From IMG/VR virus record IMGVR_UViG_3300027659_000015, positions 1 to 64,000 of that record: 64,000 nucleotides of DNA; one strand, given 5' to 3'. Each line of letters begins with the position of its first letter. Positions within the stretch are counted from its first letter, which is position 1. Below, in pieces: positions 11,065-15,626 of this stretch. The translations under genes were made by a program, and so were the position numbers. Origin of the DNA: a virus. The notes beneath the pieces were generated by a model. That model ran no database searches. It saw only the letters and a list, made by a program, of their open reading frames with translations, and was not told the origin of the DNA.

Positions 11065-11715
11065 ATGTTTCACTATTGTCCCCCTAAAGATTTACAAGAC
11101 CTACAAGCAACCACCTTTCCTGATGGTAAGAGATACTACACTCTACCAGATGGCACAAGATTACCATCAGTCACCACAGTAATTGGTGCAAAAGGTAAAG
11201 AGGCCATTCTTAAATGGCGGCAGAGAGTTGGTGAAGAAGAGGCAAACAAGATATCACGGAAAGCATCAAGCCGTGGTACAAATGTTCACACACTATGTGA
11301 ACGATATTTAAACAATGAAGCACTTGGTGACATTATGCCTGATGCAAAGGCAATGTTTCTACCACTTAAACCCATATTAAATCGAATCAATAACATTCAT
11401 TACCAAGAATGTACACTTTGGTCTGTCAATCTTGGAATGGCAGGCCGTGTTGACTGTATTGGTGAATTTGATGGTGTTTTGTCTGTAATTGACTTTAAAA
11501 CATCCAAAAGAATCAAGAAAAAAGAAGATATTGACAATTACTTTGCACAATGTGTGGCATATGCCTGCATGTATGAAGAACTGATTGGAAGTGGTATCGA
11601 CCAAATCGTCATTATTATGGCTGTAGATAATGAGGAACCACTGGTTTTTATTGAGAAAACGGCAGACCACCTAAATACTTTATTGGAGTACATAAAGTTT
11701 TATAGGGAAAATTAA
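11065..11715 (+). CDS. RecB/Cas4-like PD-(D/E)XK nuclease
   Basis: A 216-residue protein with a RecB-type nuclease core: a helix carrying H75 (RGTNVHTLCERY), then GRVD130CIG, then VIDFKTSK with D143-x-K145, and a downstream Gln/Tyr helix (YFAQCVAYACMYEE). These are the metal-binding and catalytic positions of the PD-(D/E)XK exonuclease superfamily. The LPSVTTVIGAKGKEA start is common to phage members. Family knowledge: such nucleases act in recombination, host DNA breakdown or end processing. Which of these applies here is not determinable. Confidence 0.85.
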   Translation: MFHYCPPKDLQDLQATTFPDGKRYYTLPDGTRLPSVTTVIGAKGKEAILKWRQRVGEEEANKISRKASSRGTNVHTLCERYLNNEALGDIMPDAKAMFLPLKPILNRINNIHYQECTLWSVNLGMAGRVDCIGEFDGVLSVIDFKTSKRIKKKEDIDNYFAQCVAYACMYEELIGSGIDQIVIIMAVDNEEPLVFIEKTADHLNTLLEYIKFYREN

Positions 11716-12596: not shown

Positions 12597-14297
12597 ATGG
12601 CATTACAGGCATCAGGTAGTATAAAATTTTCTGATATTGCTACTGAATTATCTTATTCTAGTACAAATTTTAGTTTTAGTAATACGGCGGCTAGACAACT
12701 TGCTGGTACAGTTGGTGTACCGACCAATCTAGGTTCATTTAGAAATAAATCTAGAAATTGGCATTTAACTCTACAAACTGCAAGTAATGGAACCACAGAA
12801 TGGTCGTATATTTCACATATGAAAGTTGGTCCTGATGGGTGTTTATATTTGTTAGATAGAACATATGAAACTACTGGTGGGAATGTCACCGCTTGTGTAT
12901 ATAAACTCAATACAGATGGTGCCTCTATTGTGTGGACTAGGACGATAAGTCCAGCAACAGCAACAAGTAATTTTTCACCAAAAAATCTAGATATTGATTC
13001 ATCAGGTAATGTATATGTCGTAACTTATGAGTGGGCAACTAGAGCTAGAGGTAATATTATTTTGGTTAAATTAAACTCCAGTGGAACTTTGGTTTGGAAA
13101 AAACAATATTATACCACAACTGCAACAGCATCCACAAATAGTTACAACGCAAGCGGAACTTACTCGAATGGTTTGCAAAGAATTGAAGGTTTTTCACCAA
13201 GAGTGGCTATAGACAATTCAGGAAATCCTGTAATAACGACAGAACAAACTAACGGCCGGACATATGATAACTATGCTTGGGGTAATGATAGTTGGATGTC
13301 AATAATAAGAATAAATCCATCTGATGGAACAATATTAAATAACTTTGCGCAAAGAGTTAAAGCTCCAACAGACACTACTGTTTCCTGGAATTCTGTTAAT
13401 CCAAGTTTACATTTTGATGCAACATTTAGTCCACAAGATATATTTTTTGATTCTTCGAACAATGGATATGTAAAATCATTAATTATACCTAAAGATGCAC
13501 GATATCAAGATTATTTTGAATGTATTACAAAATTTTCAACAACTGCAATAACAAGAAATACAATATTTTGTAATTATGGTAATGGATCCACACGGATGCA
13601 ATTAAGTTCTGATGAAAGTAATTTTTATATAGGTATTGATGGAAAGGTTGGTAAAATTGGTTCAGCTTTAACGGGTAGTTCTTATACCTATACAAAAACT
13701 ATTACTCAAACTGCAGCAAATGGTGGTGTAGATTTAGCAACAAATCTTTTGGCGACAAAAGATAATCGGTTTATACAAACTAGAGAAGTTAGAACTAATT
13801 ATGAATCGAGATTGGGACCAAAAATATTGGTATTTAATTCTGATGGTTCATTACAATATCAATTTATTAACACAGTCACATCTACTATAAACAATGCTAA
13901 CATGAGTTCTCTCGGAAACGGTATGCCTTCACCGGATTATTGTTCTTGTATTGATAGTTACAATCAAGTATACACTGCTGTTAGATTAAATGACTATAAC
14001 TTTTCTCCAACGAGAAGGTCTTATATTATAAGTAAAGTACCTATAGACAACACAAGAAAAGGTACGATAACAATCGGTAATTATACTGTTAATTTTAATA
14101 CAGATACAGCATATACAATAGGTACAGGCCCAGCTATACAAGCTGCATCTTTAGATTGTACAAGTGGTAATGCAAACCAACCACAGGATCCTACATTAGT
14201 TTCTATTAATACATCATTAGCATATTCTGTTTCAGATTCAACTGTTGGCATTACAAATTCTGGTATAAATAGCTTGGCGGTAAAGGCCAACATATAA
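12597..14297 (+). CDS. adhesin-like structural protein with predicted beta-propeller
   Basis: A 566-residue protein with AAGGA before the start. The first ~50 residues (MALQASGSIKFSDIATELSY and so on) repeat the docking domain of the upstream gene. Residues about 60-480 contain repeated units of the form DSSGNVYV, LNSSGTLVWKKQY, DNSGNPVIT and NSDGSLQYQF. These are typical blades of a beta-propeller whose repeats alternate a D-x-x-G-N turn with W-strands. The C-terminus carries YSVSDSTVGITN, echoed as YTVADTTISITN in the gene at 47327. Likely a surface or receptor-binding virion protein. Confidence 0.7.
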   Translation: MALQASGSIKFSDIATELSYSSTNFSFSNTAARQLAGTVGVPTNLGSFRNKSRNWHLTLQTASNGTTEWSYISHMKVGPDGCLYLLDRTYETTGGNVTACVYKLNTDGASIVWTRTISPATATSNFSPKNLDIDSSGNVYVVTYEWATRARGNIILVKLNSSGTLVWKKQYYTTTATASTNSYNASGTYSNGLQRIEGFSPRVAIDNSGNPVITTEQTNGRTYDNYAWGNDSWMSIIRINPSDGTILNNFAQRVKAPTDTTVSWNSVNPSLHFDATFSPQDIFFDSSNNGYVKSLIIPKDARYQDYFECITKFSTTAITRNTIFCNYGNGSTRMQLSSDESNFYIGIDGKVGKIGSALTGSSYTYTKTITQTAANGGVDLATNLLATKDNRFIQTREVRTNYESRLGPKILVFNSDGSLQYQFINTVTSTINNANMSSLGNGMPSPDYCSCIDSYNQVYTAVRLNDYNFSPTRRSYIISKVPIDNTRKGTITIGNYTVNFNTDTAYTIGTGPAIQAASLDCTSGNANQPQDPTLVSINTSLAYSVSDSTVGITNSGINSLAVKANI

Positions 14298-14302
14298 GCC
14301 TA

Positions 14303-14331
14303 TTGCCAAACTAAAATAAATATAGTATAAT
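14303..14331 (+). promoter_or_regulatory. sigma70-type promoter for the tmRNA
   Basis: TTGCCA at 14303-14308, 17-nt spacer, TATAAT at 14326-14331. Transcription would start near 14338 and run through the permuted tmRNA into the outer-membrane protein gene. An AATAAATA late-type element (14315-14322) lies inside the spacer, so the same site may be used early and late. Confidence 0.85.
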
Positions 14332-14416
14332 GGACTACTTCGAACCCATCATATTAATAATTTGCCTAATAACCATAGGATGGTTAATATGGTACTATAA
14401 TAAGATGGGTGACTGA
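14330..14416 (+). CDS. possible 28-residue membrane peptide
   Basis: A short frame, MDYFEPIILIICLITIGWLI and on to a TGA at 14414, encodes one hydrophobic helix flanked by charged ends. It resembles other tiny membrane peptides in this genome, but its ATG overlaps the -10 box of the tmRNA promoter. It could only be translated from an upstream transcript, and no ribosome binding site is visible. Weak call. Confidence 0.3.
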   Translation: MDYFEPIILIICLITIGWLIWYYNKMGD

Positions 14417-14417
14417 A

Positions 14418-14480
14418 TTGTTGTATGAAGCAACTAGAAAAGTATTCTGGACGGGGGTGCGAATCCCCCCAGCTCCACCA
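14418..14480 (+). ncRNA. tmRNA acceptor piece (3' half)
   Basis: The T-stem GGGGG (14453-14457) and CCCCC (14465-14469) enclose the 7-nt loop TGCGAAT. Then comes the acceptor strand C-AGCTCC (14470-14476), discriminator A and CCA (14478-14480), as in bacterial tmRNA. Upstream a small hairpin (GTTG 14420-14423 with CAAC 14431-14434) may be its first element. The 5' limit is approximate. There is no anticodon arm, so it is not a tRNA. Confidence 0.85.
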
Positions 14481-14541
14481 GAAGCACATGTCTTAGATGA
14501 AAGAAACCGTTTTACGGGCTCTAATGGGGTGTGTTTCTGAT
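14481..14541 (+). ncRNA. intervening segment of the permuted pre-tmRNA
   Basis: The 61 nt between the encoded CCA and the 5' G of the coding piece are expected to be removed. Bases 14480-14488 (AGAAGCACA) pair with 14530-14538 (TGTGTTTCT), nine pairs with one G-U, extending the acceptor stem across the junction. A 4-bp hairpin (14507-14510 with 14514-14517) lies inside. Confidence 0.75.
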
Positions 14542-14624
14542 GGGGCTGCATAGTTTCGACAGGGTAACAAGTATAGAAGTGGACAACTCACCAGAGTAGG
14601 TGTAAAAACTAAATCAAAGTAAAC

Positions 14625-14657
14625 GCAAACGACTCACAGTTCGCATTGGCAGCCTAA
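14625..14657 (+). other. tmRNA proteolysis tag reading frame
   Basis: GCA AAC GAC then TCA CAG TTC, GCA TTG GCA GCC and TAA encode ANDSQFALAA. The E. coli tag is ANDENYALAA. The AND start and ALAA end (the ClpXP/ClpAP degron and SspB contact ends) are kept, while the centre differs. Confidence 0.92.
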
Positions 14658-14730
14658 ACGCTGACTAGGGTTCGATAGGTTCCTCGTAACAGAATACCTA
14701 TCAACATTTTCAATAACAATAGGAGTTTTA

Positions 14731-15267
14731 ATGAAGAAATTAGCAATCGCAACTTTGGTTGCATTAAGTGTATCAGCATATGCTGGTGATACCGTTACTG
14801 TTGAAGGTCAACGTATCAACAACGCTGGTGCAGCTGCACAACAACAATATGTTTTGGGTGTTAAGAAAGACTTCGGCAATTTCGCTGGTGATGTATCTTT
14901 CGCAAATGCGCAAACTGAAGGCACAAATGTTTTGAGCACTCGTTTAGAAGCAGGCGCAACAGTATCAGGTCCAGTTGGATTGTATGCTCGTACTGCTATT
15001 GGTCAAAAATATAGCAATACAGCCGACTTCAACTACTATTCAGTAGAACCAGGTTTTACTGCACCAATCGGTGCTGGTTTGACTGCTAAGGTTGGGTATC
15101 GCTGGCGTTCTGCTTTTGCTACTACAAACGGTGACCAAACACATACAATGCGTTATGCTGTGTCTTATGCTTTGAATAAGAACGATGCTGTTGCAGTGAA
15201 GTATGACCGTGTTCAAGGTGACAGCAATCAGAAAGTTGTTGCTGTAGCATACACAGTAGGTTTCTAA
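14731..15267 (+). CDS. outer-membrane beta-barrel protein with signal peptide
   Basis: A 178-residue protein behind a clear AGGAG site. MKKLAIATLVALSVSAYA is a Sec signal peptide (cleavage after residue 18). The mature part alternates short amphipathic strands and turns (YVLGVKKDFGNFAG, LSTRLEAGATVSG, GLYARTAIGQ, LTAKVGYRWRS, MRYAVSYAL, VAVKYDRVQG). It ends in VAVAYTVGF, a C-terminal Phe strand as needed for BAM insertion. About eight strands are likely. Phage-encoded barrels may change host surface properties, for example blocking superinfection; this is inference. It directly follows the tmRNA and probably shares its transcript. Confidence 0.8.
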   Translation: MKKLAIATLVALSVSAYAGDTVTVEGQRINNAGAAAQQQYVLGVKKDFGNFAGDVSFANAQTEGTNVLSTRLEAGATVSGPVGLYARTAIGQKYSNTADFNYYSVEPGFTAPIGAGLTAKVGYRWRSAFATTNGDQTHTMRYAVSYALNKNDAVAVKYDRVQGDSNQKVVAVAYTVGF

Positions 15268-15270
15268 TCT

Positions 15271-15278
15271 ACTAAATA
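15271..15278 (+). promoter_or_regulatory. possible late promoter element ACTAAATA
   Basis: ACTAAATA lies 4 nt after the stop of the barrel gene and 70 nt before the ATG at 15348. The predicted 5' leader contains a 6-bp stem-loop (15284-15289 with 15298-15303). Confidence 0.45.
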
Positions 15279-15283
15279 AGTAT

Positions 15284-15303
15284 ATGGGTTCGGTGGGACC
15301 CAT
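15284..15303 (+). terminator. stem-loop without T-tract
   Basis: ATGGGT (15284-15289) pairs with ACCCAT (15298-15303) around an 8-nt loop. No run of T follows, so termination of the tmRNA/barrel transcript is uncertain; the structure could equally protect a 5' end. Confidence 0.4.
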
Positions 15304-15347
15304 TCAAATAATCCACTAACACACTTATCACAACACAGGAGAAAACT

Positions 15348-15626
15348 ATGTCAAACATGACACCCTTTGAAATCCGTCTCGAACTTTTAAAAATGGCTAG
15401 AGATATGTTATATGATGTATATCACGCAGAAACCAATCGAATACAAGAGACTTGGCATATGCAATGTGAAACGGCAAGGAATAAAGGTGAGACACCACCT
15501 GAACATCCAGGATTGCCAACAATCCCCTCAGAATCAGACATTATCAACAAGGCTCAAACCTTGAATGGTTTTGTGTCTAATATTATTACTGCACCTGAAG
15601 TAAAGGTCAGTAGAAAAACTACTTGA
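15348..15626 (+). CDS. hypothetical protein, 92 aa
   Basis: An AGGAG site lies before the ATG. The protein is helical and soluble: MTPFEIRLELLKMARDMLYD, then ETNRIQETWHMQCETARNKG, a Pro-rich linker and a C-terminal helix (DIINKAQTLNGFV). The TPFEIRLELLKMA opening occurs in small conserved unknowns next to gp32-region genes of other T4-like phages. Function unknown. Confidence 0.75.
   Translation: MSNMTPFEIRLELLKMARDMLYDVYHAETNRIQETWHMQCETARNKGETPPEHPGLPTIPSESDIINKAQTLNGFVSNIITAPEVKVSRKTT

Follow-up and report, generated by a model that had tools for sequence, protein, structure and literature searches.

A circularly permuted tmRNA gene of betaproteobacterial type in a T4-type phage

The RNA known as tmRNA releases ribosomes that have become stuck and marks the unfinished proteins on them for destruction. 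According to excerpts of PMC3968760, its two-piece form has been described in alphaproteobacteria, in cyanobacteria and in some betaproteobacteria. One of the closest described systems is that of Melnitz, a T4-type phage with a two-piece tmRNA reported in 2022 (PMC9004378). The excerpted text of that report lists 402 phages with a tmRNA, 133 unique structures, and 53 unique two-piece tmRNAs in 18,146 phage genomes (INPHARED), 50 of the 53 being from marine or aquatic samples. A tmRNA database of 2025, again as excerpted, counts 79 unique phage tmRNA sequences, whatever their form, and is the source of the model RF04321 (PMC11915505). The preliminary description of the present locus had left open whether permuted phage tmRNAs were already described. 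Since two-piece phage tmRNAs have been in print since 2022 (PMC9004378, excerpts), the gene presented here is not a new type; it is a well-supported new example of a known viral gene type.

The window, that is, the whole stretch of DNA which was analysed, comprises bases 1-64000 of a 105,721-base IMG/VR virus record. A circularly permuted (two-piece) tmRNA is encoded at positions 14418-14712 of the window, on a T4-type phage. Such a phage gene had been proposed from the letters alone, together with a covariance-model search, and the search (cmscan, Rfam) finds it far over the cut-offs of two models: RF01850 (beta_tmRNA) at 14340-14712 with 122.4 bits against a cut-off of 84 (E 9.2e-37), and RF04321 (tmRNA_permuted) at 14419-14657 with 117.9 bits against a cut-off of 47 (E 2.3e-22). 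No further Rfam matches above cut-off are listed in the 64-kb window, one overlapping, lower-scoring match to a family of the same clan being omitted by the listing. ARAGORN agrees, with a permuted tmRNA at 14388-14748 and the tag ANDSQFALAA, which it labels 'Tag not identified'. The gene is assigned to the beta type because the alpha model RF01849 scores only 51.5 bits on it.

The features are collected in Table 1. The 3' acceptor strand CAGCTCC (14470-14476), followed by ACCA to 14480, lies upstream of the 5' acceptor strand GGGGCTG (14542-14548), and the two strands pair at 7/7 positions, with six Watson-Crick pairs and one G3-U70 wobble. This order and pairing, which had been reported earlier, are read in the sequence, and the coordinates given then are right to within a few bases. 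The G3-U70 pair is the alanine identity pair. It is present here together with A73, as features of alanylation. Of 166 resolved genes, 165 have the same combination, and the remaining one is a probably misread row (L060). A resume codon and a short tag frame with a stop are also present; the tag proposed previously, ANDSQFALAA followed by TAA, is the one found by ARAGORN and corresponds to the frame GCA...GCC TAA.

Table 1. Features of the tmRNA locus and its surroundings, in positions of the window
Feature	Position	Strand	Basis
Exonuclease-family gene (phrog_298), conserved upstream neighbour of the tmRNA in relatives	11065..11715	+	family match, gene order of relatives
Sigma-70-like promoter TTGCCA-17 nt-TATAAT, probably driving the tmRNA	14303..14331	+	11/12 matches
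ATAAATA, overlapping the early promoter	14316..14322	+	motif match
Acceptor piece: 3' strand of the tRNA-like domain, T arm (T-loop TGCGAAT, 14458-14464), encoded CCA	14418..14480	+	sequence, Rfam, ARAGORN
Intervening segment, 61 nt, presumably removed in maturation	14481..14541	+	fold, covariation
Coding piece: 5' acceptor strand, D-loop (CATAGTTTCGAC), mRNA-like domain, predicted 3' hairpin at about 14674-14702	14542..14712	+	sequence, Rfam
Tag frame ANDSQFALAA, then TAA	14625..14657	+	ARAGORN, sequence
178-aa outer-membrane beta-barrel-like protein	14731..15267	+	predicted model, 10 strands, mean pLDDT 84.7

Phage-supplied ribosome rescue appears to be the likeliest function. We put at about 0.88 the probability that this is a phage gene for a two-piece tmRNA of betaproteobacterial type, which is processed and charged and acts in tagging at stalled ribosomes. 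The precursor transcribed from the host-type promoter would have the acceptor piece ahead of the coding piece. In it, the acceptor stem would fold together with the spacer stem that extends it, and host processing enzymes would presumably remove the spacer, leaving two RNAs joined by the acceptor stem and other stems. Host alanyl-tRNA synthetase would charge the tmRNA via G3-U70, and host SmpB would bind the elbow. The complex could then act on ribosomes that have stalled on broken mRNA, entering them, adding ANDSQFALAA and setting them free, presumably to the benefit of the phage, and the tag with its LAA end should send the product to host proteases. No match to SmpB was found in the 105.7-kb record, which may be a fragment, and this implies that the phage tmRNA must rely on the SmpB of the host.

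The stems were compared in an alignment of 26 viral genes with spacers of 50-66 nt, consisting of the window and 25 of the 26 listed distinct stretches (L003 was left out as nearly identical to L002); 25 rows are distinct. The rows had been chosen beforehand for at least 6/7 acceptor pairs and at least 4/5 T-stem pairs, which favours those two stems and not the spacer stem. The 21 named pairs represent the T stem, the acceptor stem and the stem of the spacer ends. Changes on both sides are seen in 16 of these pairs, and 96.8% of the cells pair. A slide of the columns by 1-3 lowers pairing to 43-61%, and none of 500 shuffles was as high on any of five measures. All 7/7 acceptor pairs, G3-U70 among them, are present in each of the 25 distinct rows, for which at least 6/7 had been required. 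It is important to note that the set provides a large basis for comparison, with strong covariation. Chance resemblance is ruled out by the two covariance models and the compensatory changes among the relatives.

The ends of the spacer form a stem which prolongs the acceptor stem in the window gene. In the alignment, all nine pairs of the spacer-end stem have changes on both sides and 92.4% of the cells are paired. Among 119 distinct viral spacers the longest end-to-end helix averages 10.1 pairs, against 5.4 in shuffles, and reaches at least 9 pairs in 97. Of the 18 bacterial beta-type genes, 15 have spacers of sufficient length for the comparison, and these show stems of 4-12 pairs; the 12 alpha-type genes listed have stems of 5-10 pairs, both counts being without a shuffled control. 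Because the bacterial spacers of both types have stems too, such a stem would seem to be a general feature of permuted tmRNAs. The viral spacer lengths given by the acceptor-stem reader range from 21 to more than 300 nt (for example, L165, L187 and L156), and the extremes may be misreadings.

The tmRNA gene had been described as having its own promoter of perfect spacing, and this is borne out by TTGCCA-17-TATAAT and by the near-consensus sequences which recur upstream in relatives. The site is the best of eight promoter-like sites in 13800-15400, although their number is ordinary, since the shuffled region gives 5.6 (sd 2.8). The full consensus TTGACA-17-TATAAT stands just upstream of the tmRNA in the close relatives L163, L168 and L046. 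Of 156 viral loci with a permuted call, 150 were used, six being dropped for too little upstream sequence; 11 or 12 of the 12 promoter positions match upstream in 62 of them, compared with 2 of 150 letter-shuffled stretches. A 28-codon hydrophobic frame at 14330-14417, whose ATG overlaps the -10 box and which ends just 5' of the tmRNA, is kept at 68-93% identity in L163, L168 and L046. The motif ATAAATA, which we take to be a late promoter core like that of T4 and cyanophages, occurs 16 times in the window, in every case on the + strand; 32.45 matches would be expected for the two strands together, so that it is rarer than by chance. It is found upstream in 47 of the 150 viral tmRNA loci, a count without shuffled control.

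The assignment to a T4-type phage, already made in the preliminary description, agrees with the families matched in the record: gp32, tail tube gp19, baseplate wedge gp6, DNA end protector and exonuclease. For gp32, gp6 and the exonuclease, the best-ranked named phages are about 40-56% alike among the matches listed. The best-ranked named relatives of gp32 are cyanophages with about 56% identity, and the top scores of gp6 belong to Melnitz and pelagiphage HTVC008M with about 40%, in both cases among the matches listed. In relatives, among them L119, L161 and L163, the exonuclease gene is followed by the tmRNA, a short gene, a cell-wall hydrolase gene and gp32; the window shares this order, except that two extra genes separate its exonuclease gene from the tmRNA.

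The gene of a 178-aa protein starts 18 nt past the end of the Rfam match and is preceded by a site resembling a ribosome-binding site. The last (terminal) hairpin of the RF01850 model is absent from the window gene in the Rfam alignment. Because this hairpin is missing and the beta-barrel gene follows at once, the two genes probably form one transcript or operon. The protein has no Pfam or PHROG match. In Foldseek its predicted model matches barrels, the best TM-score being that of the designed barrel TMB10_163, with porins weaker. The protein has a signal-like start and matches in 39 of the loci searched, the window's own copy included; no match was found among named phages. It may possibly be a receptor decoy or a superinfection barrier.

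IMG/VR contains many similar permuted tmRNA genes, with the same T4-type genes next to them. A T-arm scan found at least 120 IMG/VR stretches; in the 120 listed, ARAGORN called a permuted tmRNA in 85, only a standard one in 13 and none in 22. The viral counts of the pattern scans are lower bounds, and the order of the matches is not random sampling. In 42 of 113 further tag loci no tmRNA was called by ARAGORN, so that either the program misses some tmRNAs or the pattern matches elsewhere. A second sample was chosen by two neighbouring proteins, exonuclease and gp32, in order to avoid choosing by the RNA itself. Counted per locus entry, ARAGORN or the acceptor-stem reader, whose counts are conditional on at least 6/7 pairs, found a permuted tmRNA in 46 of the 80 exonuclease loci and in 37 of the 80 gp32 loci; the two sets share some contigs, and some loci are too short to reach the tmRNA site. 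Where at least 4 kb follow the exonuclease gene, a permuted tmRNA lies within 4 kb on the same strand in 32 of 51 loci. No tmRNA was detected at that site in the other 19, which suggests that the gene is dispensable in the group or was missed by the detectors. No tmRNA is annotated or called by ARAGORN in the 7.6 kb surrounding the exonuclease match of phage C48C1, the exonuclease relative of best rank, which speaks against the tmRNA being universal in the group. The permuted tmRNA is a recurrent gene beside core genes of a T4-type phage group.

In the bacterial order searched, beta_tmRNA was found over its cut-off in only 16 of 399 genomes. The S. elongatus control genome matched RF04321, but of the 14 control genomes just one, presumably Caulobacter, was over the cut-off of that model, and RF01849 matched Caulobacter alone among the controls. 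One genome of the bacterial order searched (G269) has a permuted beta-type tmRNA of 104.1 bits (L379, 1501-1825) and a second weak match (L379/L590), which may be its own standard gene; the ten proteins around the permuted gene have no PHROG match of known function. Stenotrophomonas and Xanthomonas are gammaproteobacteria and should have a one-piece tmRNA, because the two-piece form is known from the three groups named above. Phages of such hosts carry permuted tmRNAs. To judge from these sequences, the permuted form seems to follow the phage and not the host, and the presumed one-piece hosts make the parallel working of a two-piece phage RNA with the host tmRNA testable. Our guess is that many of the related phages come from lakes.

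It is also important to compare the elbow of these molecules, for which tRNA numbering is carried over to tmRNA. The T-loop of the window gene, TGCGAAT, has G and not U at position 55, and the D-loop has A and not G at 18. The four tRNA genes near the record end all have ordinary U55 T-loops by reading. Among 146 resolved viral genes (134 distinct sequences, two named phages included), 75 have U55-G18 (71 by script and 4 read from the loops) and 69 have G55-A18; of the remaining two, L068 is readable as A18 and L060 is misparsed. Eight viral rows were dropped for lack of a T-loop reading, and 12 rows and Synechococcus phage BUCT-ZZ01 were unresolved in this set. A tree of 154 rows was made with positions 18 and 55 masked, L060 being left out for its misread D-loop. 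Its well-supported branches provide 14 independent pairs, and in all 14 the two sites switch together, between G18-U55 and A18-G55 (sign test, p 0.00012). The neighbour-chosen sample, where 74 readings reduce to 55 distinct genes (11 of them also in the pattern-chosen sample), gives 36 G55-A18, 18 U55-G18 and one exception, L528, which has G55 with G18, a gap of 291 nt and no tag read. This is strong evidence, from comparison of sequences, that positions 18 and 55 form a tertiary pair in the tmRNA elbow. Selected suppressor tRNAs follow the same rule, G18 with U55 and A18 with G55.

The A18-G55 combination as an invention of phages is ruled out by alphaproteobacterial tmRNAs, in which G55-A18 is found in 29 of 29 readable genes (30 were fetched). 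G55 occurs in none of 121 pattern matches among 120 listed bacterial loci, of which only nine were called permuted. What is left standing by the sequence comparison is the switching of the elbow inside the viral set. Binding of SmpB needs the contacts of D-loop and T-loop, and TruB probably makes the T-loop pseudouridine (PMC3968760, excerpts); a G at position 55 would be unable to receive it. The switch may be regarded as a natural experiment on the D-loop/T-loop contact gripped by SmpB. No paper on this elbow pair (A18/G55, purine trap) in tmRNA was found in a literature search lying mostly outside the subscription journals. A wider reading, which we consider unlikely, is that T4-type phages, many of them probably of lakes, have a tmRNA lineage of their own, inherited with the phage genome whatever the form in the host, with tags rare or absent in bacteria and an elbow switching between G18-U55 and A18-G55, and that in infection it takes over ribosome rescue with a tag set by the phage.

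The tag ANDSQFALAA, searched with a TCN serine box only, is found in at least 120 viral stretches by the IMG/VR pattern scan and not at all in a genome collection of 84,980 bacterial and archaeal species, which lacks contigs below 3,000 bases and some masked stretches. The positive control of the bacterial scan was the T-arm pattern (at least 120 bacterial stretches), not the tag pattern. No paper mentioning the tag was found in the same literature search. It is not the phage tag as such, a possibility ruled out by its frequency of 8 in 85 tags of the T-arm-chosen sample (among the matches listed) and 11 in 69 distinct neighbour-chosen tmRNAs (82 tag-bearing locus entries), where ANDEKFALAA accounts for nine. 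The suggestion of a phage-chosen tag made in the preliminary description finds some support in the absence from the collection, whereas the wide variation of tags among related phages speaks against it, and a purpose behind the S-Q is unproven. All 69 neighbour-chosen tags end in LAA, IAA or MAA, the reader accepting only tags which end in AA or VA, and 62 of them contain AND. Since the viral tags vary while these ends are kept, the tag would appear to be held fit for proteolysis while its middle drifts. ARAGORN gave unusually long tags in L013, L021, L059, L072 and L108, for example ANANTFDFSAMSFTGNTVRGAANESRFALAA.

These tag frames bear directly on the alternative that the molecule is a decoy, whose tRNA-like part titrates host SmpB and blocks host trans-translation. 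There is precedent in the tag-less tmRNA of mycobacteriophage DS6A, which inhibits tmRNA in E. coli according to excerpts of PMC11915505 and PMC4131195. However, the window gene keeps a tag frame, resume codon, stop and LAA end, which a pure decoy does not need, and the uniform [LIM]AA ends of the 69 neighbour-chosen tags (within the ends accepted by the reader) point the same way; we regard this alternative as very unlikely. Even less probable is a copy of a host ssrA gene which the phage took up recently and which has no function there, being decayed or a passenger. The excerpts of PMC9004378 report ssrA fragments in prophage genomes and host ssrA as an integration site, but the compensatory changes and the promoter and neighbours conserved among the relatives are against such a copy. 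In a quick tree, moreover, 98 viral rows, the window gene included, form a clade (SH-aLRT 99) which contains none of the 18 bacterial beta-type genes. Because pairs change on both sides and the promoter recurs, the gene can be taken, on these comparisons, as conserved and not decayed. The least probable alternative is a selective weapon, in which a phage-specific tag sends host proteins to proteases and recycles amino acids (as raised for Melnitz in the excerpts of PMC9004378) or alters the fate of tagged proteins: the strong early-type promoter and the occurrence of the tag in viral stretches but not in the 84,980-species collection (TCN serine) would suit it, but the tag resembles an ordinary ClpXP tag, many different tags are found among related phages, and tmRNA acts on stalled ribosomes and not on chosen proteins.

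With ribosome rescue by a phage-encoded two-piece tmRNA as the preferred reading, the gene can be compared with the known systems. It resembles the betaproteobacterial tmRNA of RF01850 in gene order, folds, 3' hairpin and the start AND of the tag. However, all 18 bacterial beta-type genes have G18-U55 (13 by script, 5 by reading), where the window has A18-G55; the tags of 16 of the 18 start with ANDE, in place of ANDS; the spacers are 5-43 nt (counted with the base after ACC), compared with 61 nt; and the last hairpin of the model is not retained. Because the G18-U55 elbow is not found in it, the window gene is best described, from its sequence, as beta-type and not as a betaproteobacterial gene.

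Four named phages of other groups, Stenotrophomonas phages Mendera and Yut2, Synechococcus phage BUCT-ZZ01 and Xanthomonas phage Rb1, also have permuted tmRNAs, with RF04321 over its cut-off and a spacer present. They differ from the window gene in their U55-G18 elbow (by reading) and their tags. The permuted tmRNA is annotated in the record of Yut2 and unannotated in BUCT-ZZ01 (L400, 1328-1624), Rb1 (L401, 998-1303) and Mendera (L003, 1503-1754).

The locus shares several features with that of Melnitz: a T4-type phage, a permuted gene, its own tag and an early promoter upstream, the promoter of Melnitz being given in the excerpts of PMC9004378. A reading of the Melnitz elbow as A18-G55, as in the window, is also possible. 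Melnitz has a glutamine riboswitch just downstream of the tmRNA, which a like search finds, whereas none over cut-off was found in the 64-kb window, and control by such a riboswitch is ruled out for the present gene. The tags of the two phages are different, ANDNYVPVDYALAA in Melnitz and ANDSQFALAA in the window. The types also differ: the tmRNA of Melnitz is of alpha type (RF01849, 106.7 bits), while that of the window is of beta type, with 122.4 bits against 51.5 bits for the alpha model.
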